Below, in pieces: positions 24,215-56,845 of a stretch of 64,000 nucleotides of DNA. Below the pieces are notes generated by a model. The model had not been told where the DNA came from. It did not search any database and saw only the letters and a program-made list of their open reading frames with translations. This DNA is from Minwuia thermotolerans (lineage in GTDB: Bacteria; Pseudomonadota; Alphaproteobacteria; Minwuiales; Minwuiaceae). Location of the stretch: assembly GCF_002924445.1 (NCBI RefSeq), contig NZ_PIGG01000040.1:62001-126000 (forward strand), written 5' to 3'. The first letter of the stretch is position 1. Each line of letters opens with the position of its first letter. A program made the translations under genes and the position numbers.

Positions 24215-25566
24215 TCGTCGCTCGCTGCGGCGCGGGTGACGGCCTCCGCGATGTCGTCGACGATCTCGCGGATCACCGCCTCGTCCTCGCCCTCGCCCAT
24301 GACGCGGATCAGCGGCTCGGTGCCCGACTTGCGGATCAGCAGCCGCCCCGTCGCGCCCAGGCGCTTCTCGCCATCGGCAATGGCCTGCTTGACCTTCGGA
24401 TGCTCCAGCGGCGCGCCCTTGCCGAAGCGCACGTTCTTCAGGATCTGCGGCAGCGGGTCGAACAGGCGCACGGCCTCGGAGACCGGCTTGCCGCCCTCGG
24501 CGATCACCGCCAGCGCCTGCAGCGCCGCCAGGGTGCCGTCGCCGGTGGTGGCGTAGTCGCTCAGCACGATGTGGCCCGACTGCTCGCCGCCGACATTGTA
24601 GCCGTCGGCGCGCATGCGTTCGACGACATAGCGGTCGCCGACCTTGGTGCGGATCATCTGCAGGCCGAGGCCGTTCAGATAGCGTTCCAGTCCCATGTTC
24701 GACATCACGGTGGTGACCACGCCGCCGCCGCGCAACCGCTCCTCCTCGGCCCAGCGGCTGGCGATCAGCGCCATCAGCCGGTCGCCGTCGACCTCCCGGC
24801 CACGCTCGTCGACCATGATCATGCGATCGGCGTCGCCGTCGAGCGCGATGCCGACATCCGCCCCCAGCTTCACCACCTTCTCGCGCAGCATCGCGGTGTT
24901 GGTCGAGCCGCAGCCATCGTTGATGTTGAAACCGTTGGGCTTGTCGCCGATGGCGATGACGTCGGCCTCGAGCTCCCAGAGCGCGGTCGGCGCGACCTTG
25001 TAGGCGGCGCCATTGGCGCAATCGATGACGATCTTCAGCCCGTTCAGGCGCTTGCCGCGCGGGAAGGTGCTTTTCACGAACTCGATATAGCGCCCGCCGG
25101 CGTCATCCAGCCGCTGGGCGCGGCCCAGGTCCCGCGGCTTGGCCAGGCGTCCGCGCACGCCGTTGTCCATGCCCGCCTCGATCTCCGCCTCGGTCTCGTC
25201 GGATAGCTTGAAGCCGTCCGGCCCGAACAGCTTGATGCCGTTGTCATGGAACGGATTGTGGGAGGCCGAGATCATCACGCCCAGATCGGCGCGCAGGCTG
25301 CGGGTGAGAATGGCGATGGCCGGTGTCGGCAGGGGGCCGACCATGACCACGTCCATGCCGACCGAGGTGAAGCCGGCGGCCAGGGCGGGCTCCAGCATGT
25401 AGCCGGACAGGCGCGTGTCCTTGCCGATCACCACCCGGTGGCGGTGATTGCCGCGCATGAAGACCCGGCCCGCCGCCAGCCCGACCGAGAGCGCCCGCTC
25501 CGCCGTCATCGGCTCGTCATTGGCCCGGCCCCGGATGCCGTCGGTGCCGAAGTACTTCCGCCCCAT
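24211..25566 (-). CDS. glmM: Phosphoglucosamine mutase
   Basis: Converts glucosamine-6-phosphate to glucosamine-1-phosphate for peptidoglycan and LPS precursors. The 451-residue protein starts [12 protein letters not shown] and carries the phosphoserine motif ISASHNP with Ser102, the same number as in Escherichia coli GlmM. It also has the Mg loop DGDADR, GGEQSGH, and the phosphate-binding [12 protein letters not shown]. It lies 31 bp after folP and overlaps thiD. The folP-glmM pairing is conserved in many proteobacteria, usually behind ftsH, which is absent here. Confidence 0.97.
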
Positions 25567-25597
25567 GTTCCCTCCGATCGCTCGCTGGTGCCCCGCC

Positions 25598-26440
25598 TTA
25601 TCGATCAGACGGCGGCGGATGTCCATTGCGCGCGGCGTGGAAGACGGCGAGCGCCTGGACGGTTTCGGCCACGTCGTGAACCCGCAGGATGTCGGCCCCG
25701 CCGGCGGCGGCGGCCAGCGCTGCACCGATCGAGCCGCCGAGACGCCGGTCGGCCTGCTTCACGCCGGTCAGCCAGCCGATGAAGCCCTTGCGGCTGGCGC
25801 CCACCAGCAGCCGCACGCCGAGTTCGCGGAAGCGCGGCAGCGCCGCCATCAGCTCCAGGTTCTGACGGAAGGTCTTGCCGAAACCGATGCCGGGATCGGC
25901 GACGATGCGGCGGCGCTCGATGCCCGCCGCCGCGCAGGCGGCGATGCGCGCCTCCAGATAGCTCAGCACCTCGGCGGCGACGTCGTCATAGGTCGGGTTC
26001 TCCTGCATGTCCTCGGGCAGACCCTTCGCGTGCATCAGCACCACCTCGCAGGATGCGCCGGCGATCACGTCCAGCGCGGCCGCATCGAAGGTGAGCGCGC
26101 TGACGTCGTTGATCATCGGCGCGCCGAGCGCGAGGGCGCGGCGCATGATCTCCGCCTTGCGGGTGTCGACGGAGACCGGCGCCCCTTCGGCAAGCAGGAC
26201 TTCCAGCACGGGCGCGAGGCGCCGCCACTCCTCCTCCAGCGGGATCTCCGCGGCGCCGGGCCGGGTCGATTCCGCGCCGATGTCGACGAACGCCGCGCCG
26301 TCGGCAAGGTGCCGCCGGGCCAGCCCGATGGCCGCCGCCGGCGCCGCGGCGCGGCCGCCGTCGGAAAAGCTGTCGGGGGTCACGTTGACGATGCCCATGA
26401 CGGCCGGCGGGGCCGCGGCCTCGGACGCTGTCGGATGCAT
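25598..26440 (-). CDS. folP: Dihydropteroate synthase
   Basis: Joins the pterin pyrophosphate to p-aminobenzoate in folate synthesis. The 280-residue TIM-barrel protein has the two family signatures: [14 protein letters not shown] (near residue 16) and [11 protein letters not shown]. It also has [16 protein letters not shown] and GASRKGFIG. It begins 15 bp after the upstream cyclase stop, so it is probably on the same transcript as the coiled-coil/cyclase pair. Confidence 0.97.
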
Positions 26441-26455
26441 GACGATGGCGGCGCG

Positions 26456-28744
26456 CTATTTCTCGGTCATGATCCAGACGCCGTCCCAGTCGTCGCCGGG
26501 CGGCGCCTTCTTCATCAGTTCGCAGCGCTCGATGTACATGTTGCCGAGCTTGTCGGTCTCGTTCGCCTTCAGCGCTTCCCTGAAATAGCCGGTGGCGCGG
26601 TCCCATTCCTGCTTGCGGTACTGCTTGACGCCTTCATTGAAGTTGCCGAGCACGTCCATCAGGTTCGGGAAGGTCTCGTCGGTGTGGTAGTCGAGGCATT
26701 CGAACACGCCGACCGGCTTGGTCTTGCCCTTCACCACCACCTTGTCGACTTCGCGCAGGCGGTAGACGCCCTTCAGCTTGGCGACGGTGTATTCCGACAG
26801 CAGGATGCGGGCGTTGTATTGCTTGCACGCGCTCTCCAGCCGCGCGGCGAGGTTCACGCCGTCGCCGATCATGGTGTAGTCCATGCGCTTCTTGGAGCCG
26901 ATATTGCCGGCGACGATGGAATCGGTGTTGAGCCCCAGCCCCATGTCGACGGCCATCTCGCCCCGGGCCTCGCGCTGCCTGTTCCAGTCCCACAGCGTCT
27001 TGATCATGTTGATGCCGGCGCGGAGCCCCCGGTCCTCGTCGTCCTCATGGGGCAGCGGAATGCCGAAGGCCGCCATGATCGCGTCGCCGATGAACTTGTC
27101 GAGCATGCCGCCCTGGTCGGAGATGCAGTCGACCATCAGTTCGAAATAGTCGTTGAGCAGCGCCACGGTGCCCTGGGCGCCCAGCTTCTCGGTGATGGTG
27201 GTGAAGCTGCGCACGTCGGAGAACAGCACCGTCGCGATGGTGTCCTTGCCGCCCAGGATGTCGTCCTGGTTGCCGCCGGCCAGCATCTGGTCGGCCAGGC
27301 CCGGATCCATGTAGCGCGACAGCGTCGACCTGGCGCGCTTGGCGTCGGAGATATCCTCGATCATGACCAGCGTGCCGAGCGAGGCCCCCTCGCCCGACTG
27401 CATGGGCAGAACGGTCACGTTCACGGACGCCTTCTCGTCACCGATCTTGAGTTCGGTGTCGAGCATGCTTTCGCCCTCGTCGGTCTCGGCGACGCGGGCG
27501 ATCTTGTCGACCAGCCACTGGTTCTGCTCGCCGAACACCTCCTCGGGCTTCTTGCCCAGGATGTCCTTGGCCGAGGTACGCATGATGCGCGCGCCGGCGG
27601 CGTTGCAGGTCTTGTTCTCGCCATCCTCGTCGAAGGTGATCACGCCGTTCGACATCGATTGCAGCATGGACTCGTTGTAGTTCTTCATCGCCTGGACATC
27701 GCCGAACAGCTTGGCGTTCTCCAGGCCGATGGCGATCTGCGCGGTGAAGGCCTTCAGCCGGCTCTCGTCGTCGCTGGTGAAGGGCCCGCCCTTCTTGTTC
27801 AGCGCCTGGGTCACGCCGATCACCTTGCCGGCCTTGTTGACCACGGGCACGCACAGGATCGAGCGGGTGAAGAAGCCCGTCTGCTTGTCGAAGCCCGGAT
27901 TGAAGCGCAGGTCGGCATAGGCATAGGGGATATTCACCGTATCGCCGGAGGTGAACACCGCGCCGGCGATGCCGAGATGGTTCGGCAGCCGGATCTCGAC
28001 CGAATCCAGCCCCTCCCCCACATGGCTGAACAGCTCGTTGGTCTTCTCGTCGTTGATGAACAGCGTCGAGCGTTCCGCGTCCAGCATTCGCGTCGCCTCC
28101 GACATCACCCGCTGCAGCAGGCGCGTCAGTTCGAGTTCGGAGGTCATGTCGGAAACGATGTTGAGGAACTCGATCTCGCGCTGGCGCGTCGTTTCCATGC
28201 GCTCGACGAGCTGCATCGACTGCAGGGTGATGGCGCACTGGGTGGTCATGCCCTCCAGCACGGTCAGGTCCATCTCCGTGAACTGGCCTTCCTTCTTGTT
28301 CAGCACCTGGGCGACGCCGATCACCTCACCCTTGGCGTTGCGCACGGGCGCGGCGAGGATCGACTTGGTGGTGAAGCCGGTCTCGGCGTCGACGTCGCGG
28401 TTGAAGCGTTCGTCATTGTAGGCGTCGTGAATGATCTGGCCTTCGCCCGACTGGAAGGTGTGACCGGCGATGCCGACATTGTCCAGAATGCGGATCTCGT
28501 GACGCTTGAGGCCCTGGGCGACGCGGGAGAACAGTTCGCCCGTCATCGCATCGTGCAGGAACAGGGTGCCGCGCTCGGCCTTGGTCTCGGCGACCGCGAC
28601 GCTGACCAGCGTGTCGAGCACGGCGTCCAGCGTGTCCAGCGCGGCGACCTGGCGGGAAACGTCGAGCAGCATCTGCAGCTGCTTGATGTGCTCGGATTGC
28701 GAAAGGTTCTGGTTCTTTCGCGTGCCGCGCGGGTTCTCATACAT
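26456..28744 (-). CDS. Class III adenylate/guanylate cyclase with two GAF domains and a PAS domain
   Basis: A soluble 762-residue cyclase. Two GAF domains (about residues 38-185 and 210-360) share the GHTFQSGE/GAVFTSGD pattern and the IGVxQxLNKKxG strand; a PAS domain follows (about 365-480). The catalytic domain has metal-binding Asp510 (SDVRSF) and Asp554 (KFIGDAIM), Lys next to the second site, and the Thr and Arg of MIGDGVNLAARLE. Lys/Thr favours ATP, so cAMP is the likely product. A TPR-like helical pair follows, and the protein ends PPGDDWDGVWIMTEK, the same kind of tail as in the CHASE2 cyclase at 54.5-56.8 kb. It overlaps the coiled-coil gene by 8 bp and precedes folP by 15 bp. Confidence 0.93.
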   Translation of the reverse strand: MYENPRGTRKNQNLSQSEHIKQLQMLLDVSRQVAALDTLDAVLDTLVSVAVAETKAERGTLFLHDAMTGELFSRVAQGLKRHEIRILDNVGIAGHTFQSGEGQIIHDAYNDERFNRDVDAETGFTTKSILAAPVRNAKGEVIGVAQVLNKKEGQFTEMDLTVLEGMTTQCAITLQSMQLVERMETTRQREIEFLNIVSDMTSELELTRLLQRVMSEATRMLDAERSTLFINDEKTNELFSHVGEGLDSVEIRLPNHLGIAGAVFTSGDTVNIPYAYADLRFNPGFDKQTGFFTRSILCVPVVNKAGKVIGVTQALNKKGGPFTSDDESRLKAFTAQIAIGLENAKLFGDVQAMKNYNESMLQSMSNGVITFDEDGENKTCNAAGARIMRTSAKDILGKKPEEVFGEQNQWLVDKIARVAETDEGESMLDTELKIGDEKASVNVTVLPMQSGEGASLGTLVMIEDISDAKRARSTLSRYMDPGLADQMLAGGNQDDILGGKDTIATVLFSDVRSFTTITEKLGAQGTVALLNDYFELMVDCISDQGGMLDKFIGDAIMAAFGIPLPHEDDEDRGLRAGINMIKTLWDWNRQREARGEMAVDMGLGLNTDSIVAGNIGSKKRMDYTMIGDGVNLAARLESACKQYNARILLSEYTVAKLKGVYRLREVDKVVVKGKTKPVGVFECLDYHTDETFPNLMDVLGNFNEGVKQYRKQEWDRATGYFREALKANETDKLGNMYIERCELMKKAPPGDDWDGVWIMTEK

Positions 28745-29699
28745 TCTCGATCTCCTCCAGGCGGTCGCGGAGGCGCTGGATGGTCGTCCTGAGTTGCTTC
28801 AGTTCGTCCCTCTGCGCCCGCTCCATGGCCTGGCGTTCCTCGCGGTGTTCGCCGCGAATGGCGTCCATCTCGTCGCGCAGCGACTGGATGGTCTGTCTGA
28901 GCTGGCCGGCCTCGGCGGCGCCGAGCGCCTTCGCCCGCTGCGTCTCGGCCTGGCCCCGGCGGCGGATCTCGTCCATCTCGTCGCGCAGGTTCTGCACCGT
29001 CTCCTTGAGCTGCGCGATCTCCGCCGCAGCCGCCTGTTTCTCGGCCTGGACCAGCCGGCGCGTCTCCACGCGCTGATCCTCCAGCGTATCGCGCAGAGCC
29101 TGGGCGGTCTCCTTGAGCTGGCCGATCTCGGCCGCCGCGGCCTGCTTTTCCGCCTGCACCATACGCTGGGCTTCGGCGCGCTGATCCTCCAGCGTGTCGC
29201 GCAGCGCCTGCGCGGTGTCCTTCAGCTGGCCGATCTCCGCGGCGGCGGCCTGCTTTTCCGCCTGCACCATGCGCTGGGCTTCGGCGCGCTGGTCCTCCAG
29301 CGTGTCGCGCAGCGCCTGCGAGGTGTCCTTGAGTTGCTGGATCTCGGCCGCCGCGGCCTGCTTCTCCGCCTGCACCAGGCGCTGGGTCTCCGTGCGCTGG
29401 TCCTCCAGCGTATCCCGCAGCGCCTGGGCGGTGTCCTTGAGCGTGCCGATCTCGGAGGCTGCCGCCTGGCGCTCCCGCTGCGCAAGCACGGCGCCCCGCC
29501 GGCGCTCCTCCTCCAGCTCGTCCCTCAGCGCCTGGGCGGTGTCCTTCAGCGTGCGGATCTCGCCGGCGGCGTCGGCCTCCGCCTTCTGGACGCGGCGGCG
29601 GATCTCGACGTCCTTCTGCTCCAGCGTCTCCCGCATCGCAGACACTGTCCGCTGCAGGTGCCGGATATCGGCTTCCTTGTCCAGCGCCGTCAGAGCCAT
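28737..29699 (-). CDS. Coiled-coil protein built of exact 36-residue repeats
   Basis: A 320-residue, highly charged helical protein with no signal peptide or membrane segment. Its body is a tandem 36-residue repeat with consensus elements AAAAEIGQLKDTAQALRDTL, then EDQRAEAQRMVQAEKQ. About eight units run without insertions; the central four are nearly identical and the outer ones diverge. Gln, Ala, Glu and Arg dominate. Thirty-six residues equal ten helical turns, so the average coil may be close to straight. The start at 29699 follows GAGGCGGTC. Its last codons overlap the cyclase start by 8 bp (GTATGA), implying co-translation. I do not recognise a family; a scaffold or partner of the cyclase is inference. 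Confidence 0.85.
   Translation of the reverse strand: MALTALDKEADIRHLQRTVSAMRETLEQKDVEIRRRVQKAEADAAGEIRTLKDTAQALRDELEEERRRGAVLAQRERQAAASEIGTLKDTAQALRDTLEDQRTETQRLVQAEKQAAAAEIQQLKDTSQALRDTLEDQRAEAQRMVQAEKQAAAAEIGQLKDTAQALRDTLEDQRAEAQRMVQAEKQAAAAEIGQLKETAQALRDTLEDQRVETRRLVQAEKQAAAAEIAQLKETVQNLRDEMDEIRRRGQAETQRAKALGAAEAGQLRQTIQSLRDEMDAIRGEHREERQAMERAQRDELKQLRTTIQRLRDRLEEIENV
28754..29643. repeat. Tandem 108-bp coding repeat, about eight units, constant period
   Basis: The same phase mark (a CTCC-type tract followed by AGCGT) recurs at 28754, 28862, 28970, 29078, 29186, 29294, 29402, 29510 and 29618, each exactly 108 bp apart. No indels occur over nearly 900 bp. Units starting at 29078 to 29402 are the most alike. 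The repeat encodes the 36-residue unit of the coiled-coil protein. It is not a CRISPR array because units are contiguous and coding. Confidence 0.95.
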
Positions 29700-30978: not shown

Positions 30979-31027
30979 TTGACGCAGGGGCGGGCAATGC
31001 CCATTATCCGGTCACGTTGCAGTGCAG
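30979..31027 (+). promoter_or_regulatory. Phasin 1 promoter with PhaR-like operator at the start point
   Basis: TTGACG (30979-30984), a 17-bp spacer and CATTAT (31002-31007) form a sigma-70-type promoter. TTGCAGTGCAG (31017-31027) follows 9 bp after the -10 box and fits YTGC-N3-GCAG. The same arrangement with the same spacing precedes the second phasin gene, which supports it. Confidence 0.65.
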
Positions 31028-31072
31028 CATAACCGGCAACCACATATTCCAGCCCGTCCGGAGGACAGACCG

Positions 31073-31489
31073 ATGACCAAGACCGCCAACCCCTTTGCCG
31101 ATTTCGGCAAGATGATGAAGGACATGAAGGCCCCGATGTTCGACGTCGACGCGTTCATGACCATGCAGCAGAAGAACTTCGAGGCGATGACCACCGCCAA
31201 CCAGCTCGCCATGGACAGCGTCCGCGCGGTCTTCGAGCGCCAGGTGCAGATCGCCCAGGAGTCCGTCGAGGAAGCCCAGACCGCCATCAAGAGCGCGGCC
31301 GAAGGCAAGACCAAGGTGGACGTCGACGAGCAGACCACGCAGGCCAAGGCCGCGATGGAGAAGGCCTCCGCCAATGTGCGCGAGCTCTCCGAGATGGTCT
31401 CCAAGTCGCAGAACGAGATCTTCGACGTCCTGCACAAGCGCATGCTGGACGGCATCGAGGAGGCGAAGGGCCAGTTCAAGCTGAACTGA
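31073..31489 (+). CDS. phaP: Phasin family protein 1
   Basis: A 138-residue amphipathic helical protein that would coat polyhydroxyalkanoate granules. Family features are the N-terminal NPFADF, the MQQKNFEAMTTANQLAMDSVRAVFERQ helix region, and a C-terminal MVSKSQNEIFDVLHKRM segment. It has no cysteine and no membrane span. The start at 31073 is preceded by GGAGGAC. A frame extending to 31022 would run through the operator and is not used. An intrinsic terminator separates it from phasin 2, which is the same length. Confidence 0.92.
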   Translation: MTKTANPFADFGKMMKDMKAPMFDVDAFMTMQQKNFEAMTTANQLAMDSVRAVFERQVQIAQESVEEAQTAIKSAAEGKTKVDVDEQTTQAKAAMEKASANVRELSEMVSKSQNEIFDVLHKRMLDGIEEAKGQFKLN

Positions 31490-31510
31490 ACCGCCTCACG
31501 ACCGCCTTCG

Positions 31511-31547
31511 AAAGGGTCCGCCGGGCAACCGGCGGGCCCTTTCTTTT
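31511..31547 (+). terminator. Rho-independent terminator of phasin 1
   Basis: A 14-bp stem with one G-U pair (AAAGGGTCCGCCGG against CCGGCGGGCCCTTT) closes on a GCAA tetraloop and runs into TTTCTTTT. It lies 21 bp after the stop codon. Confidence 0.93.
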
Positions 31548-31565
31548 GCAATCGCGAGAAAGAGA

Positions 31566-31615
31566 TTGACGCAACGGCAGGCGTTGACCATAAGCGGTTC
31601 GCGCTGCATTGCAGC
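31566..31615 (+). promoter_or_regulatory. Phasin 2 promoter with PhaR-like operator at the start point
   Basis: TTGACG (31566-31571), 17-bp spacer, CATAAG (31589-31594). The palindrome GCTGCATTGCAGC (31603-31615) contains CTGCATTGCAG, an exact CTGC-N3-GCAG match, 9 bp after the -10 box. The layout is superimposable on that of phasin 1. Confidence 0.68.
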
Positions 31616-31674
31616 ATCATCTGCCGCGCCGTGCGCCTAGCCGCGCCGCAACCCCCAGACCGGAGAGTCCCCCG

Positions 31675-32091
31675 ATGCCCGTTCCCGCCAATCCCTTCGC
31701 CGATCTCACGAAGACCCTGTCCGGATTCAAGTGGCCGGCGATGGACCTCAACGCCTTCACCGAGATGCAGCGCCGCAACTTCGAGGCCCTGACCCGCGCC
31801 AACCAGGTTGCGGTCGACGGCTTCCGCGCGCTGATCGAGCGTCAGGCGGAGATCGCCCAGACCTCGGCGGCCGAAGCCCAGTCGGCGATCCGCAATCTGG
31901 CCGAGGGCGGCAAGGGTCCCGATTTCGAGGCGCAGCTGACCACCGCCCGCGGCGCGATGGAAAAGGCCACCGCCGACCTGCGCGAGCTGCAGGATATCGT
32001 CGCCCGCTCCCAGACCGAGGTCTTCGACATCATCAACACCCGGATGATCGAGGCCGTCGACGAGATGCGCCAGCCCGCCGCCAAGGACTGA
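31675..32091 (+). CDS. Phasin family protein 2
   Basis: A 138-residue paralogue of the upstream phasin, sharing NPFADL, MQRRNFEALTRANQVAVDGFRALIERQ and the SQTEVFDIINTRM segment. It probably binds polyhydroxyalkanoate granules as well. Both proteins keep the same length with many charged substitutions, so this is an old tandem duplication with conserved spacing. It has its own promoter and operator, allowing separate expression. The start ATG at 31675 follows GGAGAG. Confidence 0.9.
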   Translation: MPVPANPFADLTKTLSGFKWPAMDLNAFTEMQRRNFEALTRANQVAVDGFRALIERQAEIAQTSAAEAQSAIRNLAEGGKGPDFEAQLTTARGAMEKATADLRELQDIVARSQTEVFDIINTRMIEAVDEMRQPAAKD

Positions 32092-35052: not shown

Positions 35053-36504
35053 CTACTCCGCCGCGGTGGCGGCGTCCTCTTCCTCCCAGGCGGCGCGCTT
35101 GCGGTAGATCGTCTGCGGCGCGATGCCGAGCAGCGCCGCGGCGGTGCGGATATTGCCGCCGCAGCGTTCGATCGCGTTCTCGATGTAGTCGCGTTCGACC
35201 GCGGCCAGCGGCCGGATCTCCTCGGACAGCGACTGCACATCGGCGCGGCGCTCCGGACGCGGCGGTCCCGCCTCGGGCTCCGCTGCGGACGCCGCAGCCG
35301 CCGGGGGCGGGGCCAGCGCCTCCACCTTCTGCAGGTTGGCCGGCAGCATCTCCGGCGTCACCGTCTCGGCGTCGTTCAGGACCACGATGTTGTGCACCGC
35401 GTTCTGCAGTTCGCGCACATTGCCGGGCCACTCATGCGCCATCAGAATCGCCGCGGCGGCCGGCCCGAAGGCGCGGAAGCTCTTGCCTTCCTGTTCGGCG
35501 TAGCGGCGCAGGAACGTCTCCGCGATCCGCAGAATGTCGTCGTCGCGCTCCCTGAGCGGCGGCAGGTGCATCGGGATCACGTGCAGCCGGTAGTAGAGAT
35601 CCTCGCGGAACCGGCCCGCCTTGACCTCCGCCATCGGTTCCTTGTTGGTGGCGCAGATCACCCGCACGTCCACCTTCTCGACCTTCGAGCTGCCGACCTT
35701 GCTGTAGGTCTCGGTCTGGATGAAGCGCAGCAGCTTGGCCTGCAGGTCCAGGTCCATCTCGCAGATCTCGTCCAGGAACAGCGTGCCCCCGTCGGCCATC
35801 GCCGCCGCGCCCTCGCGCTCGCCCAGGGCCCCGGTGAAGGCGCCCTTCACATGACCGAAGATCTCGCTCTCCATCAGGTCGTGGGGGATCGCGGCGCAGT
35901 TGATGGCGATGAAGGGCTTGTCGCGGCGCGGGCTGCGGTTCTTGATCGCCTCGGCGCAGACCTCCTTGCCGGTGCCGCTTTCGCCGGTGATGAAGACGGT
36001 GGCCTTCGACGACGCCGCGGCCTCGATGATGCGGTAGACCGCCTGCATGCACAGCGCGCTGCCGACGAAGCCTTCGAAACCGCCGCGGTCGATCTCCGTG
36101 CGGTAGGTCTCGACGATCTCCTTGAGCTTGGTCGTTTCCAGGACGTTGCGCAGCGTGACCTTCAGCCGGTCGGCGGTGAACGGTTTCACGATGAAGTCGG
36201 CAGCGCCCAGCCGCATTGCCGTCACCGCCGTCTGCACCGACCCGTGGGCGGTGATCACGATGACGCCGATCCCCTCGTCCAGCGAACCGATATGGCGCAG
36301 GATCTCCATGCCGTCCATGTCCGGCAGCCGGAGGTCCAGCAGGATCGCGTCGGGCCGCCCTTTCTCCAGTTCGGCCAGGGCTTCGGCGCCGGTTTCGACG
36401 TGGCGGATGTCATAGGGTTCGTCGCGCAGGAACTGGATGTAGCTCCGCGCCAGCGTCGGCGTGTCCTCGACGAGCAGAATCTGAGACTTCGCCGTGCGGC
36501 TCAT
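35053..36504 (-). CDS. Sigma-54-dependent response regulator, LuxO-like
   Basis: A 483-residue NtrC-family activator. Receiver domain with phospho-acceptor Asp57 ([11 protein letters not shown]). AAA+ domain with Walker A GESGTGKE (174-181), the sigma-54-contacting GAFTGA (221-226), Walker B TLFLDEI, and [11 protein letters not shown] Fis-type helix-turn-helix lies at the C-terminus ([21 protein letters not shown]). The segment [23 protein letters not shown] is close to Vibrio LuxO. The neighbour across a 121-bp divergent gap is a hybrid kinase with an Hpt domain, the expected phosphodonor. The likely targets are the -24/-12 promoters found near 30, 39.8 and 46.9 kb. Confidence 0.94.
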
Positions 36505-36625
36505 CGGCCTGTCGTCCCCCAAAGCGCTGAAGGCCGCGTCGGCGTCCGGCTTCTGCCGCCGTCCGGTTCACCGTTCCCCGCGACCGCCAATTTTCGGTCA
36601 TTGCCCGAAGTTGTCGCATGATAGA

Positions 36626-39600
36626 ATGTCGCTGACAATGCAGCTTCAAGGCCCAGAATCGGATCGCGCGGCCGCCGCTCCGGGCGCCCGGGACGTCAAG
36701 CGGACAGGCGTGAACAGAACGCTGGCGGTCCTGCTCGCGACCGTCATGGTTCTCCTCTCCACCACGGTCTTCTCGGTGCTGACGCTGCGCAAGGAATACA
36801 ACGCCAGTTCCAGCCGCTATGACAGCATCGTCTGGGGCGCTTCGCACACCCGCACGGAACTGTCGCTGTTCCTCGCCGCGCTCGATACCTACGTGCTCGG
36901 CACCTCGGGCATGAGCCAGGCCGAATTCCAGCAGCGCTACAGCTACCTGAAACAGCGCCTGCCCGTGTTTCTCCAGGCCATGCGCTCGGACCGGGACGAC
37001 GCGCTCGGCGCCGGCGACCTGGCGAGCGGCATCCAGGATCGTCTGCGCGCCAATGACGCCCGGCTGCACAATCTGGAAGCCGGCGACTACCGAGCCTACA
37101 ACCAGCTGCGCAACGACCTGCTGCCGCTGTTCAACGCGCTGCAGCAACTCTCCAATTCCTCGGAGCTGACGGTCACACAGTCGCGCGCCGACCGGTTGCG
37201 GCCGATCTATCTGGAACTGCTGATCTCGGCGGTCGCCACCATGGCGGCGGCGGCGCTGCTGGTGCTGCTGCTGATCCGGGAAATCCGCCGCACCACCCGA
37301 CTCTACCGCCAGGTCTCGGCCGCCGAGGCGCGCGCCAACGCCGCCCGAACGCAGCTGCTGGAAGCGATCGAGGCGATGAACGACGGGTTCGCCCTCTACG
37401 ACGAGAACGACCGTCTGATCCTGTTCAACACCAGGTACCGCGAGCTCTACAGCAGCGCCGGTCAGGCGGGCATCGAAACCGGCCAGCGCTTCGAGGACAT
37501 CATGCGGCGCACCGCCAGCCGCCACATCGTCGACGCCACCACCGACCCGGAAGCATGGGTCGCCTGGCGGGTGGCGCGCCATCGCGAGCCCGGCGGCCCC
37601 TTCGAGCAGGAGCTGGTGGACGGGCGCTGGATCCTGGTCGGCGAGTTCCGCACCGACGAGGGCGGCCGGGTGAGCGTGCATACCGACATAACCGCGCAGA
37701 AGGACAATGAAGAGGCCCTGCGCGAGGCCAAGGAGCGGGCCGAGGACGCCAATGTCGCCAAGTCCCGCTTCCTCGCCATGATGAGTCACGAGATACGCAC
37801 GCCCATGAACGGCGTGCTGGGCATGACCAACCTGTTGCTGGAGACCGGGCTGAGCGGCGAACAGCACCAGTACGCCGAGACCGTTCACAAGTCGGGCGAG
37901 GCGCTGCTGACGATCATCAACGACATCCTCGACTTCTCGAAGCTGGAGGCCGGGCGGCTGGAGCTGGAGGAGGTCGCCTTCGACCTGGAAGACCTGGCCG
38001 ATGGTGTGGCAGACCTGCTTTCGGCGCGCGCCTTCGAACGCGGCACGGAAATCGCCGTGATCTACGACCCGGATCTGCCCAAGCGCTTCTACGGCGACCC
38101 CACGCGTATCCGCCAGGTGCTGCTGAACTTCGCCGGCAACGCCATCAAGTTCACCGAGACCGGCGGCGTCACCATCGAAATCCTGCTGGCCGGCAGCGAG
38201 AACGACCGTCCGAAACTGCGCTTCAACGTCACCGACACCGGCATCGGCATTCCGCAGGACCGCCAGGACGCCCTGTTCCAGGAATTCACCCAGGTCGACG
38301 CCTCGACGGCCCGGCGCTATGGCGGCACGGGCCTCGGCCTCGCCATCTCCAGACGCCTGGTCGACCTGATGGGCGGGAATATCGGCCTGGACAGCGAGGT
38401 CGGCCGGGGCAGCACCTTCTGGTTCGAAGCCACGCTGGGCGTCGCGGACGTGGCCCACAGGGGCGAGGCCCACGAGATGGTGGACCGGCTGAGCGCCATG
38501 CTCAGGGGCCGGCAGGCGGCGATCCTGGCGACGAACCCTGTCCTGCGGGAGGGGATGGCGGCGCGCCTGCGCGGCCTGGGCCTGTCGATCGCCCACAACG
38601 CGGCTTCGCTCGATGCGCCGTCCCGCACCGTCGATCACCTGGTGATCGACGGGGGCCTGGCCGAACACGCCGGCGCCGCGGACATCGTCCGGCTGCGCAG
38701 CCGCGTCGGCGGCCGCATGGTGGTGGCGATCGACCCGTCCCAGCGCGGCCGCGCCGAGCAGATCCTGGCCCGGGGCTTCGACCAGTTCCTGCTGCGCCCG
38801 CCCCGGCCGCTCGCCCTCGCCCAGGCGCTGACCGGGCGCGACAGCGCCGCGGAAGCCCATGCCGCCGCCACGATCGAGCAGATCGGCGACGAGGCGGCAC
38901 TGGGCGCGCGGGTGCTGGTGGCCGACGACAACCGCATCAACCTGCAGGTCGCCAGGGTGATGCTGGAGAAGGCGGGCTACGCGGTCACCGCGGTCGAGGA
39001 TGGCGCTGGCGCCCTGGCCGCCATCGGCGAGAACGACTTCGAGGTGGTGCTGATGGACGTGCAGATGCCGGACATGGACGGCTTCGAGGTCACCGCCGCG
39101 ATCCGCGCCCTGGACGGCGCCAGGGCCACGACGCCCGTGGTCGCGGTGACGGCCAACGCCATGCCCGAACACCGCGAGGAATGCCTGTCGAAGGGCATGG
39201 ACGACTTCATCGCCAAACCCTTCGACAAGATCGAACTGCTGCAGCTCGTCGCCAAGTGGGCGCTGATTGGCGCCGCCAGTACCGGCGGCCCGCCGAACGC
39301 CGGAACGATGGCGGGGCCAGCGGCCGCCGATGCCGGGCCGGTTCCCGCCGGCGCGGCGCCGGAACCGGGGGGCGAGGTGGAAGGATCGATGATCGACCGC
39401 GCGATCCTCGACCAGTTCGGCGAGGATGTCGGTCAGGACTACCTGCCCGAACTGCTGCGCGATTTCATGCTGGATACCCAGGATCGGCTGGAACGGCTGT
39501 CCGAGCCTCTGGACGATGTCAGCGCCGACCGGCTGGGACGGGAAGCGCACAGCCTGAAGAGCAGCGCCGGCACCGTCGGCGCCGTGTCACTTTCCGAGGC

Positions 39601-39733
39601 AGCCGCAAAAATTGAACGATTGTGTGACGAAGGGCCACTGGAAGATGCCCGCCAGGCGATAGAGGAAATTCGCGCCATCGCGGAACGAACGCTGGCGGAG
39701 ATGGGCCGGATGATCGAGCAGCGGGCCGCCTGA
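36626..39733 (+). CDS. Hybrid sensor histidine kinase with PAS, REC and Hpt domains
   Basis: A 1035-residue membrane kinase. A cytoplasmic tail, a first helix ([20 protein letters not shown]), a helical periplasmic domain of about 160 residues and a second helix ([18 protein letters not shown]) form the sensor. A PAS-like domain (about 245-350) precedes HisKA with His388 ([12 protein letters not shown]). Then come HATPase motifs ([19 protein letters not shown]), a degenerate receiver-like stretch, an intact receiver with Asp811 ([12 protein letters not shown]), and an Hpt domain with His975 ([11 protein letters not shown]). This His-Asp-His chain should pass phosphate to the divergent LuxO-like regulator. 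The input signal is unknown. Confidence 0.94.
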
Positions 39734-39814: not shown

Positions 39815-39849
39815 GCGCCTAGGATCGAGGCGAACCAGGGAAAGCCGTG

Positions 39850-42800
39850 ATGGAACAGCGCCCGGACAGCGCACGTACAATCGAGGCCGAAGCCGTCTTC
39901 AGCGAAAGCGAGACGGCCGGTTCGGCGTTCGTCGTGCCCGGCCTCGCCGCCTCGACGGCCCCCGAAGCGCCGACACCGCTGGTTCAGGCCCAGGCCACGG
40001 CCGGCGGCGAAGGACCGATCAGCGTGGAGAACGTGCGCGGCGAGGTTCTGATCATCGGCGTCGACGGCCGCCAGTTCCAGGCCGCGCCGGGTCAGAAGCT
40101 CAGCCCCGGCGACGTGGTCATGACCCAGGGCGACGGCGCGCTGGAGGTCACCCTGACCGACGGCACCAGGCTGTTCTTCGACAGCGAGAGCCGGGTGCTG
40201 ATCGAGGAACCGGCAGAGGCCGCGGCCAAGCCCCAGTTCTTCGTCATCCAGGGCGAGTTCTCTGTCGACAACCGCGATTCGACGGAGGGACCGGCGAGCG
40301 AGCTTCTGGTGCGGACGCCGGTGGCCTCCGTCAGCGTCAAGGGCGCGCGGATGATCGGCAAGGCCGCGCCCGAGGCCCAGGCCAATACCTTCGTGCTGCT
40401 GCCCAACGCGGGCGGCGCGGCCGGCGCGCTGGCCGTCGCCACCGCCGGCGCGGTGGTGACGCTCGATCAGCCGCTGCAGGGCCTGCAGGTGCTGTCGCTG
40501 TTCCGCGAACCGACCCGCATCCCCGAGGTCGACGCGCAGTTGCTCACCGCGGAGTTCGGCGACGGCGTGCTGGCCTATTCCGACATCGCCGGCGATTTCG
40601 AGATCGCGCGCACCGACACGGACGGATTCCTCAGCCGGCTGGGCGAGGTCTTCGGCATCACCGAGGCGCAGGCCGACCCGATCATCGAGGGCGGCGAGGC
40701 GGTCGGCGACGGCGGTTCGGACACGGAGGTGGTGGGCGACACCGGCGAGGACGAACTCGACGACCGCAATGACGAGGACGAGGTCGGCGACGACGGCGGC
40801 GACGACGGTGAAATCGATGTCGCCTTCGACGGCGCCGAGGAGGTCGATGTCGCCAATGGCGGCGTCTTCAACGTCACCGGCGGCGCCGGCGAGGACGTTC
40901 TGACAGTCGCCGCCGACCAGGTGAACGCCAATACCGTTACCCTGGAAGAGGTCGGCGGTCGCGCGGTGCTCGCCTTCGGCAACGGCGCGCAGGTGAACAT
41001 CGACGAGGTCGAGACCCTGGCGGTCAATCTGGGCGCGGCAAGCGACGAGATCGCCATCGGCAATCTGGGCGGAACCGACATTTCCGACAACACGGTGATC
41101 CTCGATCTCGGCGGCGGAGACGACTCGGTGGCCGCGGCCGATATCGGCAAGACGCTCGAGGTGACCGCCGGGACCGGAAACGACACGGTTGTCGCCGGCG
41201 CGCTGAACGATTCTCTGGACGGCGGCGCGGGAGACGACAGCCTGACGGGCAATGCCGGCGAAGACACCATCGACGGCGGCGACGGGAACGACATCTTCGC
41301 CGGCGGCGCGGGCGACGACTCGCTCACCGGCGGCGCGGGGACCGACCGCGCAGTCTATGCCGGCAGTTCCGCCGACTTCAATGTCAGCGCGGCAGACGAT
41401 GGCAGCATCATTGTGTTCGAGGACACCACCGACGCGGAAGGGACCGACACCCTCGCCAACGACATCGAAGCGGTGGAGTTCCAGGGCGACGCGCGGCTGC
41501 TCGACGTGGTCTTCGGCACGGCCGCCGGCGACAACCTGACAGGCGGCGGGGCCGACGAATTCCTGGCCGCCCTGACCGGGAACGACACTGTGGCCGGCGG
41601 CGGCGGCGGTGACGTGCTGGCCGGCGGCAGCGGCGCGGACCAGCTCTCGGGCGATGCCGGCGACGACCTGATCGGCGGCGAGGCCGGCGACGACACGATC
41701 ACCGGCGGTGCGGGCGACGACAGCCTGTTCGGCGGCGAGGGCGCCGACCAGGCCGGCTATGCCGGCAATGCGGGGAACTTCGTGGCGACCGGCGATGACG
41801 ACGGCAGCCGGCTCACCCTGACCGACAGCGTCGGTGGCGAGGGCGCCGACATCCTCGGCAGCGACATCGAAACCATCGACTTCGCCGATATCACCGTCGA
41901 CGTCGCCCTCGGCGACGCCACGGCGCAGAACCTGACAGGCGACGCCGGCAACAATCTCATCGGCGCCGGCGGCGGCGCCGACACCGTGGACGGCGGCGAC
42001 GGTGTCGACATCGTCTCCGGCGGCGGCGGCGCGGATTCCCTTGTCGGCGGCGCGGGCGGCGACAGCCTGTTCGGCGATGCGGGCGACGATACCCTGACCG
42101 GCGGCGCCGGCGACGACCTGCTCTCGGGCGGCGCGGCCACCGACCGGGTGAACTACACCGGCGAGAACACGGGATTCGCCTTCGCGGTCGACGAGGCCGC
42201 CGCACGCCTGCGGCTCACCGACACGGTGGGCGCGGAAGGCGCCGACGCGGTGGCGCTGGACGTCGAGACCCTGGCCTTCAGCGTCGAAGGCGCCAGCGAC
42301 GATGTGCTGTTCGACGTCACGGGCGGCACCGCCGCGGGCGAAGCGCTCGACCTCGGCGCGGACAACGACATCGCCACGGGTCTGGCCGGCGACGACACGC
42401 TGACCGGCAATGGCGGCAACGACATCCTGTTCGGCGGTTCGGGCGACGACGTCGCCGTCTATGCCGGGGCCATCGGCGGTTTCAACCTCGGTTTCTCCGA
42501 CGACGGCGCCTTCGTCTTCGTCGCCGACCAGTCCGGATCCGAAGGCTCCGACACGGTTTCCAACGATGTCGAGCAGTTCGACTTCGCCGGAGAGGTCTTC
42601 TCGATCCAGGGCGGCACCGCTGCGGGCGACACGCTCTCGGGCACCGTGGGACGAGACTTCATCGTCGGTCTGGCCGGACAGGACAGCATCACCGGCGAGG
42701 CCGGCGACGACCTTCTGGCCGGCGGCGGCGGCAACGACACGCTGGATGGCGGGGCCGGCGACGACACGCTGCAAGGGTCCGACGGCGACGATGTGCTGAC

Positions 42801-45471
42801 CGGCGGCGACGGGACCGACACCGCCGACTTCTCCGACGCCGGCGGCGCGGTCGATGTCGACCTGAGTACGGGCGCGGCGAGCGGCGACGGCACGGACACG
42901 CTGAGCGGGATCGAGAACATCGTCGGCGGCGCGCAGGCCGACACGCTGACGGGCGACGCCGCCGCCAATGCCATCGAAGGCGGCGTCGGCGGCGATTCGA
43001 TTGCCGGCGGCGCGGGCAATGACAGTCTGTCCGGCGACGCCGGCGGCGACACGCTGTTCGGCGGGCTGGGCGACGATACCTTCGATGGCGGCATCGGCTT
43101 CGATTCGGCCGACTACCGCGACAGCGCCACGCCGGTAAACGTCGACATGTCCGCCGGCGGCGGCGCGGGCACGGTCACCGGCGAAGGCACGGATGCGCTG
43201 ACCGCGATCGAGCGGGTCTTCGGTTCCGCCGGCAACGACACCTTCACCGGCAGCGACGGCGACGACAATTTCGTCGGCCGCGGCGGCGACGACCTGCTGA
43301 TCGCCAGCCTGGGCAACGACACGCTGAACGGCGCGGCCGGCAACGACACTGCCGATTTCTCCAACCTGACCGGCGCATTCCAGATCGACCTGACCGGCAA
43401 CAGCGCCACACTGGACGCGAACAGCTACACCGTTCTCGGTCTGGAGACGATCATCGGCACCGCGGGCGACGACACCATGAACGGCGATGCGGACAACAAT
43501 CGTCTCGAAGGCGGCCAGGGTGCTGATTCGATCGGCGGCGGCGGCGGCGCGGACACCCTGCTCGGCGGCGCCGGCAATGACACCATCGCCGGCGGCGACG
43601 GCAATGATTCGATCAATGGCGGCGCAGGCAATGACAGTCTCGACGGCGGCGCCGGCAACGACACGCTCGATTTCTCCGACGCCACCGAAGGCGTCGCCGT
43701 CGACCTTTTCGGCGGACTGGCGGCCAGCACGGCGACCGGCACCGACACGGTCACCGCCTTCAACGGCGTCACCGGCGGGGCGGGCGACGATTCGATCCGC
43801 GGCAGCGCCGACGCCGATACCATCGCCGGCGGCGATGGCGACGACCTGATCATCGGCGAGGGCGGCAACGACAGCCTGGACGGCGGCGCAGGCAGCAACA
43901 CGCTGAGTTTCGCCACCGCCTCCGCCGACCTGATCGTCGACATGACGGCGGGCACGGCCGCCAGCGCGGAGACCGGCTCCGACAACTTCGCCAACTTCAC
44001 CACGGTCATCGGCGGCGCGGGCGCGGACTTCATTTCCGGCGACGCCGAGCGCAATTTCCTTCTCGGCGGCGAGGGTAACGACACGCTGAACGGCGGCGGC
44101 GAGCGCGACACGCTGCGCGGCGGCGCAGGCGACGACCAGCTGAACGGCTCCGACGCGGAAGTGGACGTCGCCGACTATGCCGACGCCACCGAGGACCTGA
44201 CGCTAACGCTGGGAGCTGTCACGGACATAAGCACCACCGTGACCACCAACGACCTCGGCACCGACACGCTGTTCTCCATCGATGGCTTCCAGGGCGGGAC
44301 GGGCGACGATTCGATCACCGGCAATGCCGGGATCAACCGGCTCGGCGGCGGCGACGGCAACGATACGCTGATCGGCGGCGATGGGGCCGACGTGATGTTC
44401 GGCGATGCCGGGAATGACAGCGTCGAAGGCGGCAACGGCGACGACTTCATATTCGGCGGTATCGGCGACGACACGATCGACGGCGGCGCGGACGATCTTG
44501 GCGTCGCGGTCGACAGCATCGGCGACGTCATCAGCTATTTCGGTCTCGGGACCGGTGTGAATATCGACCTGACGGCCGGAACCGCGACCGGAATCGAAGC
44601 CGGTACGGACATCGTCACGAACTTCGAGGCGGCTGTCGGCACCGACCAGGGCGATACGCTGTCGGGTAATGCAAGCGACAACCTGCTGCAGGGCCGGCTG
44701 GGTGATGACAGCATTTCCGGGCTCGACGGCGACGACGACATCTTCGGCGACGAGGGTGACGACGTGGTCCAGGGCGGCGCGGGCGCCGATACCCTGCGCG
44801 GCGATCTGGGCAACGACACCATCGACGGCGGCGACGGCGACGACCTGATCCAGGCCGACCAGGACGACGACACGGTCTCCGGCGGTGCGGGCAATGACCA
44901 GATCTTCGCCGGCAGCGGCGATGACAGCGTGCTTGGCGAGGACGGCAACGACGCCGTCGAGGGCGGGGCCGGCTCCGACAGCCTGTTCGGCGGACTGGGC
45001 GACGATACCCTGACCGAGACCTCCGGCCAGAACCTGATGGATGGCGGCGCGGGCAACGATTCGATCACCGGCGCGGACAACCTGGACACGCTGTTGGGCG
45101 GCGAAGGCGCGGACACGCTGACCGGCGGCGGCGGGGCCGACGCCTTCCAGTACGATCAGGCCATCGGGCATCAGGACGTCATCACCGACTTCACGTCGGG
45201 CGAAGACCGCTTCCTGATCGACGGCGTGGCCTTCGACAATGTCGGCGGCGGCGCGAACACGCTGACCGACGGCGAGAGCTTCGTGCGCGTGGCCGAAGCC
45301 CTGATCGACGGCGACACCGAACTCGGCACCGGACAGGCGACCTTCGTCTTCGATTCGAACAACACGCTGCACTTCGACCCCGATGGCGACGGCGCCCAGG
45401 CGAGCTTCGAGATCGCCAGCGTGACCGTCTCCAACGGCACGCTCCAGGCCAGCGATTTCGAGATCCAGTAG
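39850..45471 (+). CDS. Giant type I-secreted RTX protein with N-terminal FecR domain
   Basis: A 1873-residue acidic protein without signal peptide. A FecR-like domain lies at about residues 55-185 (SVENVRGEVLIIG, then LSPGDVVMTQGDGALEVTL and PVASVSVKG). An acidic linker (EDELDDRNDEDEVGDD) follows. From about residue 330 to 1770 dozens of GGxGxDxLx calcium-binding nonapeptides run in blocks, broken by spacer modules (four of a YAG/YTG type, then seven of a DFSDA-VDL type). The C-terminus (DVITDFTSGEDRFLID to SDFEIQ) looks like a type I secretion signal. ABC, HlyD and TolC genes follow directly. Likely an adhesin or surface-layer protein; no protease or lipase motif was seen. A GTG at 39847 adds one residue. 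Confidence 0.93.
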   Translation: MEQRPDSARTIEAEAVFSESETAGSAFVVPGLAASTAPEAPTPLVQAQATAGGEGPISVENVRGEVLIIGVDGRQFQAAPGQKLSPGDVVMTQGDGALEVTLTDGTRLFFDSESRVLIEEPAEAAAKPQFFVIQGEFSVDNRDSTEGPASELLVRTPVASVSVKGARMIGKAAPEAQANTFVLLPNAGGAAGALAVATAGAVVTLDQPLQGLQVLSLFREPTRIPEVDAQLLTAEFGDGVLAYSDIAGDFEIARTDTDGFLSRLGEVFGITEAQADPIIEGGEAVGDGGSDTEVVGDTGEDELDDRNDEDEVGDDGGDDGEIDVAFDGAEEVDVANGGVFNVTGGAGEDVLTVAADQVNANTVTLEEVGGRAVLAFGNGAQVNIDEVETLAVNLGAASDEIAIGNLGGTDISDNTVILDLGGGDDSVAAADIGKTLEVTAGTGNDTVVAGALNDSLDGGAGDDSLTGNAGEDTIDGGDGNDIFAGGAGDDSLTGGAGTDRAVYAGSSADFNVSAADDGSIIVFEDTTDAEGTDTLANDIEAVEFQGDARLLDVVFGTAAGDNLTGGGADEFLAALTGNDTVAGGGGGDVLAGGSGADQLSGDAGDDLIGGEAGDDTITGGAGDDSLFGGEGADQAGYAGNAGNFVATGDDDGSRLTLTDSVGGEGADILGSDIETIDFADITVDVALGDATAQNLTGDAGNNLIGAGGGADTVDGGDGVDIVSGGGGADSLVGGAGGDSLFGDAGDDTLTGGAGDDLLSGGAATDRVNYTGENTGFAFAVDEAAARLRLTDTVGAEGADAVALDVETLAFSVEGASDDVLFDVTGGTAAGEALDLGADNDIATGLAGDDTLTGNGGNDILFGGSGDDVAVYAGAIGGFNLGFSDDGAFVFVADQSGSEGSDTVSNDVEQFDFAGEVFSIQGGTAAGDTLSGTVGRDFIVGLAGQDSITGEAGDDLLAGGGGNDTLDGGAGDDTLQGSDGDDVLTGGDGTDTADFSDAGGAVDVDLSTGAASGDGTDTLSGIENIVGGAQADTLTGDAAANAIEGGVGGDSIAGGAGNDSLSGDAGGDTLFGGLGDDTFDGGIGFDSADYRDSATPVNVDMSAGGGAGTVTGEGTDALTAIERVFGSAGNDTFTGSDGDDNFVGRGGDDLLIASLGNDTLNGAAGNDTADFSNLTGAFQIDLTGNSATLDANSYTVLGLETIIGTAGDDTMNGDADNNRLEGGQGADSIGGGGGADTLLGGAGNDTIAGGDGNDSINGGAGNDSLDGGAGNDTLDFSDATEGVAVDLFGGLAASTATGTDTVTAFNGVTGGAGDDSIRGSADADTIAGGDGDDLIIGEGGNDSLDGGAGSNTLSFATASADLIVDMTAGTAASAETGSDNFANFTTVIGGAGADFISGDAERNFLLGGEGNDTLNGGGERDTLRGGAGDDQLNGSDAEVDVADYADATEDLTLTLGAVTDISTTVTTNDLGTDTLFSIDGFQGGTGDDSITGNAGINRLGGGDGNDTLIGGDGADVMFGDAGNDSVEGGNGDDFIFGGIGDDTIDGGADDLGVAVDSIGDVISYFGLGTGVNIDLTAGTATGIEAGTDIVTNFEAAVGTDQGDTLSGNASDNLLQGRLGDDSISGLDGDDDIFGDEGDDVVQGGAGADTLRGDLGNDTIDGGDGDDLIQADQDDDTVSGGAGNDQIFAGSGDDSVLGEDGNDAVEGGAGSDSLFGGLGDDTLTETSGQNLMDGGAGNDSITGADNLDTLLGGEGADTLTGGGGADAFQYDQAIGHQDVITDFTSGEDRFLIDGVAFDNVGGGANTLTDGESFVRVAEALIDGDTELGTGQATFVFDSNNTLHFDPDGDGAQASFEIASVTVSNGTLQASDFEIQ
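41200..45150 (+). repeat. RTX nonapeptide repeat field and spacer modules
   Basis: The DNA is dominated by GGCGGC-GGCGACGAC-type units of 27 bp encoding GGxGxDxLx. Spacer modules of type A begin near 41350, 41755, 42150 and 42455. Type B modules begin near 42820, 43110, 43345, 43665, 43905, 44165 and 44525. The spacing drifts between about 240 and 400 bp. Confidence 0.85.
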
Positions 45472-45473
45472 CC

Positions 45474-46760
45474 TCAGTACGCTGCGAGGTTCAGCCGGCC
45501 CGTTTCGAACAGCACCCGGAAGACCTGCACCAGCGCGTCGTAGCGCGCGGCCGTGGCACGGCTGCGTGCGCCGTTGAGTTCGGCCTCGGCGTCGAGCACG
45601 TTGATCACCGACTCGCGGCCGGCGGTACGCAGCCTGCGCCGCGCGGTGAACAGTTCCGAGGCGATCGCCGCGGCGTTAGCGGCGAGGTCGGCCCGCTCGC
45701 GGAGCGTGATGAGCTGTTCCCAGGCGACCTCGACACGCTTGGCGATCTCCAGGCTCAGCGCCGCATGGTTCTCCATCGTCTCGGCGATCCGCCGGCCGGA
45801 GCGTTCGGTCGCGGCGGCGGTGGCGAATCCGTCGAACAGCTCCCACTCGGCGCGCAGTCCGACAAAGGCCTCCTTGCGGTTGCCGGGAATGCCCTCGGCA
45901 TCGTTCTCCATCGCCCCCTCGGCGACGATGTTGATCTGCGGAAAGAAGTCGGCCATGGCGACCTTGCGCTGCTGGCGGGCCTCGCCGATGGTCTCGTCGC
46001 TCTGCTTCATCAACGGGTTTTCGGCCAGAGCGATGTTGATTGCCGCCTGCAAATCGGGCGGCAGCAGGTCGTCCGGCGCCTCGGGCGGGGCCATCGAGCC
46101 GATCTCCGGAGCATGGTTGAAGACCGCGTAGTATTCGGCGATCGCTTCCCTCAGCCGCCCCTCCAGCCGCACCCGCGCTTCCTTGGCGGCCTGCAGACGC
46201 GACTTGGATTGCAAGACGTCGACCGACAGGCCGGAGCCCCGGCGCACGCGCTCATCCTCCAGGGCGAGCTGGCGGCGGATCGTCATTTCCGTCTCCAGCG
46301 CGATGTCCACCAGCTCGGTCTGCTTCAGGACGTCGAGATAGGCGGCGGTGCCGCGCAGCAGGATCTGCTGCTCCGCCCGCTCCAGCGCATAGCCCGACTT
46401 GAACTCGCGGGCGATGGCGCCCTTCAGCTGGCCATCGGTGCGGAAGCCGTCGAAGACCTTCTGGGTGACGGTGAAGCGGCCGATCTCGCGGCTCTGCTCG
46501 ACTGCCGGCTGTCCCGCGGCGCGGGCCACGGGGCTGTCGACGTTCTCGTAGCCGTATTCGCCGCTGATGCGGAGCTGCGGCAGATAGGGCGCACGGGCTT
46601 CGGTAACCGCCAGCTGCGACTGCTCGAAACGGCGCTCGGCCGCGCGAACGTCCGGATGGGCCTGGAGCACGATCTCCAGCTCCTCCTGCAACGGCGCGGC
46701 CCCGGCCGGCGCGGTCAATGCCAGCGCCACGGCGGCGCCTATTGCGAGATGACGGTACAA
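45474..46760 (-). CDS. TolC family outer-membrane channel of the type I secretion system
   Basis: A 428-residue outer-membrane efflux protein. After a signal peptide (AIGAAVALALTAPAGAA) it has two copies of the alpha-barrel repeat, with conserved EARAPYLPQLRISGEYGY and MADFFPQINIVAEGAM, and GLSVDVLQSKSRL. The start is a TTG at 46760 after GGGGATAGG; no better ATG fits the signal peptide. It converges with the RTX gene (stops 2 bp apart) and diverges from the ABC gene. It completes the export channel with HlyD and the ABC protein. Confidence 0.93.
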   Translation of the reverse strand: MYRHLAIGAAVALALTAPAGAAPLQEELEIVLQAHPDVRAAERRFEQSQLAVTEARAPYLPQLRISGEYGYENVDSPVARAAGQPAVEQSREIGRFTVTQKVFDGFRTDGQLKGAIAREFKSGYALERAEQQILLRGTAAYLDVLKQTELVDIALETEMTIRRQLALEDERVRRGSGLSVDVLQSKSRLQAAKEARVRLEGRLREAIAEYYAVFNHAPEIGSMAPPEAPDDLLPPDLQAAINIALAENPLMKQSDETIGEARQQRKVAMADFFPQINIVAEGAMENDAEGIPGNRKEAFVGLRAEWELFDGFATAAATERSGRRIAETMENHAALSLEIAKRVEVAWEQLITLRERADLAANAAAIASELFTARRRLRTAGRESVINVLDAEAELNGARSRATAARYDALVQVFRVLFETGRLNLAAY

Positions 46761-46871
46761 TCCGCGACCCTATCCCCTGCCGGCGGTCCGACCCGGACAC
46801 CGTCGGGAAATCCGCTGTCGCCGCCGCCGTTTATCGGGGCTATTTAACACGACGCGTGACTCGAGGCCAAT

Positions 46872-46887
46872 TGGCATCGAACTCGCA
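46872..46887 (+). promoter_or_regulatory. Weak candidate sigma-54 promoter for the secretion ABC-HlyD operon
   Basis: TGGCATCGAACTCGCA keeps the GG and GC with the correct ten-base separation and TGGCA of the -24 element; the -12 element is TCGCA instead of TTGCA. The predicted start point is near 46898 and the ATG is at 46927. Weaker than the RTX promoter. Confidence 0.35.
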
Positions 46888-46926
46888 TGAACCGTGGCGA
46901 CGCAACCGGGAGACGCAAGAGGATCG

Positions 46927-56808: not shown

Positions 56809-56845
56809 CTGTCCCCTCCTGCCGTTGCCGGCTGTCCTCAGACCT

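Follow-up and report, generated by a model that had tools for sequence, protein, structure and literature searches.

A coiled-coil protein with an invariant 36-residue unit, encoded directly upstream of a GAF-GAF-PAS class III cyclase, as its putative dedicated partner

Introduction

On the minus strand of a 64,000-nucleotide stretch of the genome of the alphaproteobacterium Minwuia thermotolerans (the window), the gene for a 320-residue coiled-coil protein (the rod) runs into the start of a cyclase gene. A first-pass annotation made from the DNA letters had described the rod as a repeat protein of unusual helical period that is coupled to the cyclase. This raises the question whether the rod is an ordinary coiled coil that happens to lie next to a signalling enzyme or a dedicated partner of that enzyme, and in the latter case what it might do there.

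Results

The rod is built from 36-residue units in constant phase

Self-comparison of the rod gave identities of 0.61, 0.55 and 0.51 at lags of 36, 72 and 108 residues, respectively, and of 0.20 or less at every other lag tested (up to 119). The protein opens with 10 residues outside the repeat, continues with eight full 36-residue units and closes with a half-unit of 22 residues, without insertions or deletions (Table 1). The nine phase marks previously placed exactly 108 bp apart correspond to the nine unit starts, which are spaced by this distance throughout, and TRF reported a 108-bp array with 0% indels. Units 3 to 6 share pairwise identities of 81-94% and are clearly recent duplicates, as judged from their sequences. 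Identities involving the outer units fall to 19-64%, with the phase kept.

The constant spacing was found throughout the family. In 87 rod proteins, unit spacing was exactly 36 residues in 392 of 392 cases, so that the description of the repeat as indel-free holds well beyond the window. This result was not forced by the method, because the unit parser allows any spacing of at least 20 and did report a spacing of 38 in a fusion protein described below. Shuffled rod relatives, used as a control, contained no adjacent unit pairs at all. Together with the 392 identical spacings, this argues that the 36-residue repeat is not due to chance. One further homologue (L213), with a single spacing of 72 that fits a missed sub-threshold unit, was kept out of the 87. 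The number of units per rod ranged from 3 to 12, and an unparsed 544-residue frame with lag 36 (L042) would equal about 15 units.

Table 1. Positions of the rod gene, its units, the partner cyclase and its domains in the window.
Feature	Position	Strand	Basis
Rod gene, 320-residue coiled-coil protein with 36-residue units	28737..29699	-	ORF and self-comparison; AlphaFold helix 2-319
Unit 1, residues 11-46, N-terminal unit	29562..29669	-	Self-comparison
Unit 2, residues 47-82	29454..29561	-	
Unit 3, residues 83-118	29346..29453	-	
Unit 4, residues 119-154	29238..29345	-	
Unit 5, residues 155-190	29130..29237	-	
Unit 6, residues 191-226	29022..29129	-	
Unit 7, residues 227-262	28914..29021	-	
Unit 8, residues 263-298, last full unit	28806..28913	-	
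Half-unit 9, residues 299-320, C-terminal cap, 22 residues	28740..28805	-	
Partner cyclase, 762 residues, GAF-GAF-PAS-class III cyclase domain	26456..28744	-	Pfam
GAF-A, residues 39-174	28223..28630	-	Pfam
GAF-B, residues 208-343	27716..28123	-	Pfam
PAS, residues 358-470	27335..27673	-	Pfam
Class III cyclase domain, residues 504-677	26714..27235	-	Pfam
8-bp overlap ATGTATGA, cyclase start codon precedes rod stop codon	28737..28744	-	

The helical period is 3.60, not 3.50, residues per turn

The hydrophobic spectrum of the window rod peaks at 3.60 residues per turn. Averaged over the family, hydrophobic power was 17.9 at this period versus 0.7 at 3.50, the period of a heptad coil. The suspicion that this is not a normal left-handed heptad coil was thus borne out for the whole family. 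Core positions within a unit follow each other in steps of 3-4-3-4-3-4-4-3-4-4, which corresponds to two heptads plus two hendecads. Single-chain AlphaFold models predicted an unbroken helix from residue 2 to 319 in the window rod (pLDDT 88) and from residue 6 to 141 in a rod of four units (pLDDT 94).

An undistorted helix has 3.62 to 3.65 residues per turn. Since 36 residues make ten turns, the supercoil would have a pitch three to six times that of a heptad coil, and the rod would be nearly straight. At 0.15 nm per residue, a unit would measure about 5.4 nm and the window rod about 48 nm.

The two parts of the unit differ in character. Positions 1-20 have beta-branched residues at a, leucine at d and opposite charges at g and e', while positions 21-36 have a weak, partly polar core, and the register in this second half is uncertain. 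Attractive charge pairs between residues i and i+5 occur almost only at positions 1-6 and 15-20, and these would be the g-e' pairs predicted for a parallel, in-register dimer.

The neighbouring gene encodes a putative adenylyl cyclase

The rod gene had been reported to overlap the start of a gene for a GAF-GAF-PAS cyclase. Pfam confirmed the domains, and the two genes share 8 bp. An in-frame cyclase ATG ahead of the rod stop codon was found in 51 of 86 homologous pairs. An open frame of 1114 residues antisense to the cyclase (25448..28792, plus strand) was dismissed as an artefact of high G+C content and does not represent a gene.

Residues D510, D554, K550, T624, N631 and R635 were invariant in 12 cyclase orthologs. 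We take D510 and D554 to be the metal-binding aspartates, K550 and T624 to select adenine and N631 and R635 to stabilize the transition state, as in a Lys/Thr-type adenylyl cyclase. The NKFDE motif is complete in GAF-B (N316, K317, F322, D326, E327) and invariant in the same number of orthologs, whereas GAF-A has N149, K150, F155 and D159 and lacks the final E. This motif marks most characterised GAF domains that bind cyclic nucleotides (PMC4411481). Among solved structures, CyaB2 (1YKD) was the best match to the GAF tandem. By domain order, catalytic residues and the presence of NKFDE in one GAF domain, the partner has the sequence hallmarks of a CyaB1-type adenylyl cyclase.

Rod and cyclase genes occur together

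A scan of genome contigs yielded 80 named loci with cyclase orthologs. In 74 of the 74 loci with enough upstream sequence, a rod gene was present directly upstream on the same strand; the other 6 were cut off by contig ends and were not counted. One locus (L060) that had seemed to hold a cyclase without a rod was dropped from the list of exceptions, because a six-unit rod is present upstream and had been missed only through the way ORFs were picked.

For the reverse search, a profile built from 20 rods (A2) was run on 385 genomes of the class and matched 32. Apart from a contig-edge fragment in G282, cyclase orthologs in this sample scored above 1000 bits and were clearly separated from the paralogs, which stayed below 960 bits. 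Rod and cyclase ortholog occurred together in 31 of the 385 genomes, and a cyclase ortholog without a rod was found in none of them. The sole genome with only a rod (G372) was not retained as a counterexample, because a GAF-A remnant of the cyclase lies directly behind the rod. In G201, G203 and G282, rod and cyclase seem to be separated only because contigs break within the cyclase gene or shortly ahead of it.

A search of 398 genomes sampled from the phylum added 22 rod genomes, and a cyclase adjoined the rod in every one of the 20 regions directly inspected. Among the few further matches, G548, G570, G426 and G500 belong to genus group g335, as do the inspected G418, G507 and G599. The first-pass annotation had asked whether homologues always precede a cyclase gene. 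In the class sample and in the inspected phylum regions, no homologue was found without the partner cyclase or its remnant.

In a quick maximum-likelihood tree, all 47 rod-paired cyclases had a single origin and formed one clade (SH-aLRT 100), with 14 rod-less paralogs outside. Twenty-nine cyclase positions were specific to this clade. They include F193, V197 and T201, which are spaced four apart on the helix between the GAF domains and suggest themselves as a candidate docking face. Pairs were found in Pseudomonadota and in records labelled Thermodesulfobacteriota, Myxococcota, Nitrospirota, Verrucomicrobiota, Planctomycetota and Actinomycetota; many of the carrier genomes were binned from metagenomes, and some of the taxon labels are questionable and may be wrong. 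No cyclase was found on plasmids at E<1e-100. We also note that several carriers (L104, L121, L105, L108, L092, L096 and L101) are named as, or resemble, magnetotactic bacteria (Magnetominusculus, Magnetovibrio, Magnetococcales), which may be a coincidence of sampling.

The generic coiled-coil matches of the rod would fit an ordinary heptad coil with a chance neighbour. This explanation is refuted by the period of 3.60 rather than 3.50 and by the conservation of the pairing over many families and several phyla, and we consider it highly improbable. Overall, the genomic data strongly support a functional pairing of rod and cyclase.

In one genome (G414, L223:3225-5936), rod and cyclase form a single frame of 903 residues, with the rod N-terminal to GAF-A. 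Its rod is degenerate and has three units, spaced 36 and then 38 residues apart, the third of which is without the invariant arginine. This was the only fusion seen and may be an assembly error. It nevertheless bears on the question of whether the two proteins touch. The rod could be an effector or regulator of a process shared with the cyclase and be co-expressed without binding it, since contact is not provable from genomic linkage alone. Mere co-expression is countered by the natural fusion, by a pairing that is strict from either side and by the absence of any other neighbour shared by all loci, and we regard it as improbable.

Rods vary in length and have conserved side faces and fixed ends

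The consensus of the unit was E-I-x-Q-L-K-x-T-(I/A/V)-x-A-L-R-D-E-L-E-x-L-R-F-E-K-x-x-A-V-Q-x-A-V-A-x-x-x-D. Several residues outside the core (E1, T8, E17, Q28) match the core leucines in conservation, and R13 was present in 99% of units; in 20 aligned proteins, each of the four units had it.

Such recurrence of the same non-core residues might indicate that a cyclase dimer or some other partner binds to each unit, always on the same face. Because of the ten-turn period, successive sites would face nearly one way and form a straight row with a pitch of about 5.4 nm, in which the freely varying number of units would set the number of enzymes. If so, the rod would be a length-coded, multi-enzyme source of cAMP. 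However, otherwise similar cyclases go with rods that differ about fourfold in unit number, and no matching change is seen in the enzyme. The conserved residues could instead serve contacts between the coils, and the differences of the N- and C-terminal units from the internal ones suit docking at an end. We rank this arrangement second, as possible but rather doubtful.

The conserved residues form two side stripes, E1-Q4-T8-A11-E15 and R13-E17-21-Q28, which would be unusual for an isolated dimeric rod. At position 21, which lies opposite the core, 69% of units carry a hydrophobic residue. These features would fit a side-by-side or end-to-end association of rods into a cytoskeleton-like fibre with the cyclase as a client. 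Known filament formers, though, gave no match beyond generic coiled-coil scores, rods can be as short as 3 units, and the rod always occurs with a cyclase and never alone. Assembly into fibres comes third in our ranking and seems unlikely, even though the conserved side faces leave room for both this and the row of docked enzymes.

Within a genus, rods of 9 and 10 units differed by exactly 36 residues. Units were more similar within a protein (0.49) than internal units were between proteins (0.38). Similarity was also higher between first units across species (0.37) than between first and last full units (0.29). A distinct spacer signature marks the last full unit; in the window rod it is found in the second half of unit 8, and most homologues end in a truncated final unit of 21-24 residues. 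The pattern of unit similarities and the special last unit indicate that rods evolve by gain and loss of middle units between fixed end caps. Rod length is free and phase fixed, which makes the rod a natural experiment in coiled-coil design. It predicts that insertions of 36 residues are tolerated and that insertions of 1, 3 or 4 residues are not.

Surrounding genes

In about 18 of the 80 loci, the rod-cyclase pair is closely followed downstream by a gene for a CHASE2-type protein, in some of them with an ABC exporter. We considered both as members of the module, since they recur near some alphaproteobacterial loci, and set them aside because they are absent from most wider flanks; these genes may be loosely linked to the pair at the regional level. 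Both kinds of protein are likewise encoded in the window, where a second cyclase combines CHASE2 and class III cyclase domains (54520..56883).

Other genes in the window are recorded here in their own right. A large RTX protein of 1874 residues with a FecR domain and many calcium-binding repeats adjoins a complete type I secretion set (39847..49922 in all), which comprises a TolC-like protein (45474..46760, minus strand), an ABC exporter (46894..48636, plus strand) and HlyD (48633..49922, plus strand). A sigma-54 response regulator (minus strand) and a large hybrid histidine kinase, the latter containing receiver and Hpt domains, lie back to back (35053..39733). Two adjacent phasin genes (31022..32091) share about 49% identity.

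Discussion

The explanation that we favour, and hold to be reasonably probable, is that the rod is a dedicated parallel coiled coil that binds the cyclase through its C-terminal end and positions or regulates it. Rod and cyclase would together form a dedicated two-protein module for cAMP signalling. The rod would be an in-register parallel homodimer, with Ile, Val or Ala at a and Leu at d in the first half of the unit, and with Glu at g facing Lys or Arg at e'. Its C-terminal cap would bind the cyclase dimer at the N-terminal end, where GAF-A lies, in the arrangement seen in the natural fusion. The special end cap fits this assignment, and the choice of end follows from the order of the two parts in the fusion. 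The docked rod would fix the position or the conformation of the cyclase, with GAF-B as the sensor of cyclic nucleotide. With the phase fixed, the conserved side face of each unit would point the same way, and the length of the rod would not be critical. Physical binding and the exact role of the rod, including the scaffold, spacer or localisation function suggested in the first-pass annotation, are what we infer from this pattern.

If this explanation is true, the obligate rod partner of a soluble cyclase would be a bacterial means to place or control a cAMP source, comparable in purpose to the anchoring proteins of eukaryotes.

Searches with the rod against Pfam, NCBIfam and PDB gave no family match above the curated cut-offs and no relative of solved structure, only scattered generic coiled-coil scores, and our search of the literature for a coiled coil with a cyclase or for a 36-residue repeat found no description of the rod or the pair. 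Several known systems are comparable in part. In Pseudomonas aeruginosa, FimV and FimL are required for the activation of CyaB, a case of a non-enzymatic scaffold controlling a class III cyclase; the proteins there are different, are not encoded as an adjacent pair and have no 36-residue repeat. Tropomyosin on actin is a long dimeric coil whose near-integral sequence repeat matches its partner and offers it equivalent sites. In contrast to tropomyosin, to which we found no sequence relation, the rod would have a cyclase as its partner, and the number of its units is not fixed.

The partner cyclase resembles CyaB1 and CyaB2 of Anabaena in the order GAF-GAF-PAS-class III cyclase and in the presence of the lysine and threonine at positions 550 and 624. 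It differs from them in the incomplete NKFDE motif of GAF-A and forms a clade of its own relative to the sampled paralogs. To our knowledge, neither CyaB1 nor CyaB2 has a rod dedicated to it.

With respect to the coil, the 36/10 periodicity of the rod equals the 18/5 (3.6 residues per turn) of non-heptad coils that combine heptads and hendecads, and can be reached as 7+7+11+11. Delocalised stutters of 14+4=18 have been described in coiled coils (PMC9369452). Unlike other coils of heptads and hendecads, the rod has a superperiod fixed at 36 in the units of every homologue, together with conserved surface residues. The architecture of the cyclase is a known one, whereas a rod that is dedicated to such an enzyme and keeps a 36-residue unit invariant is, as far as we found, new.
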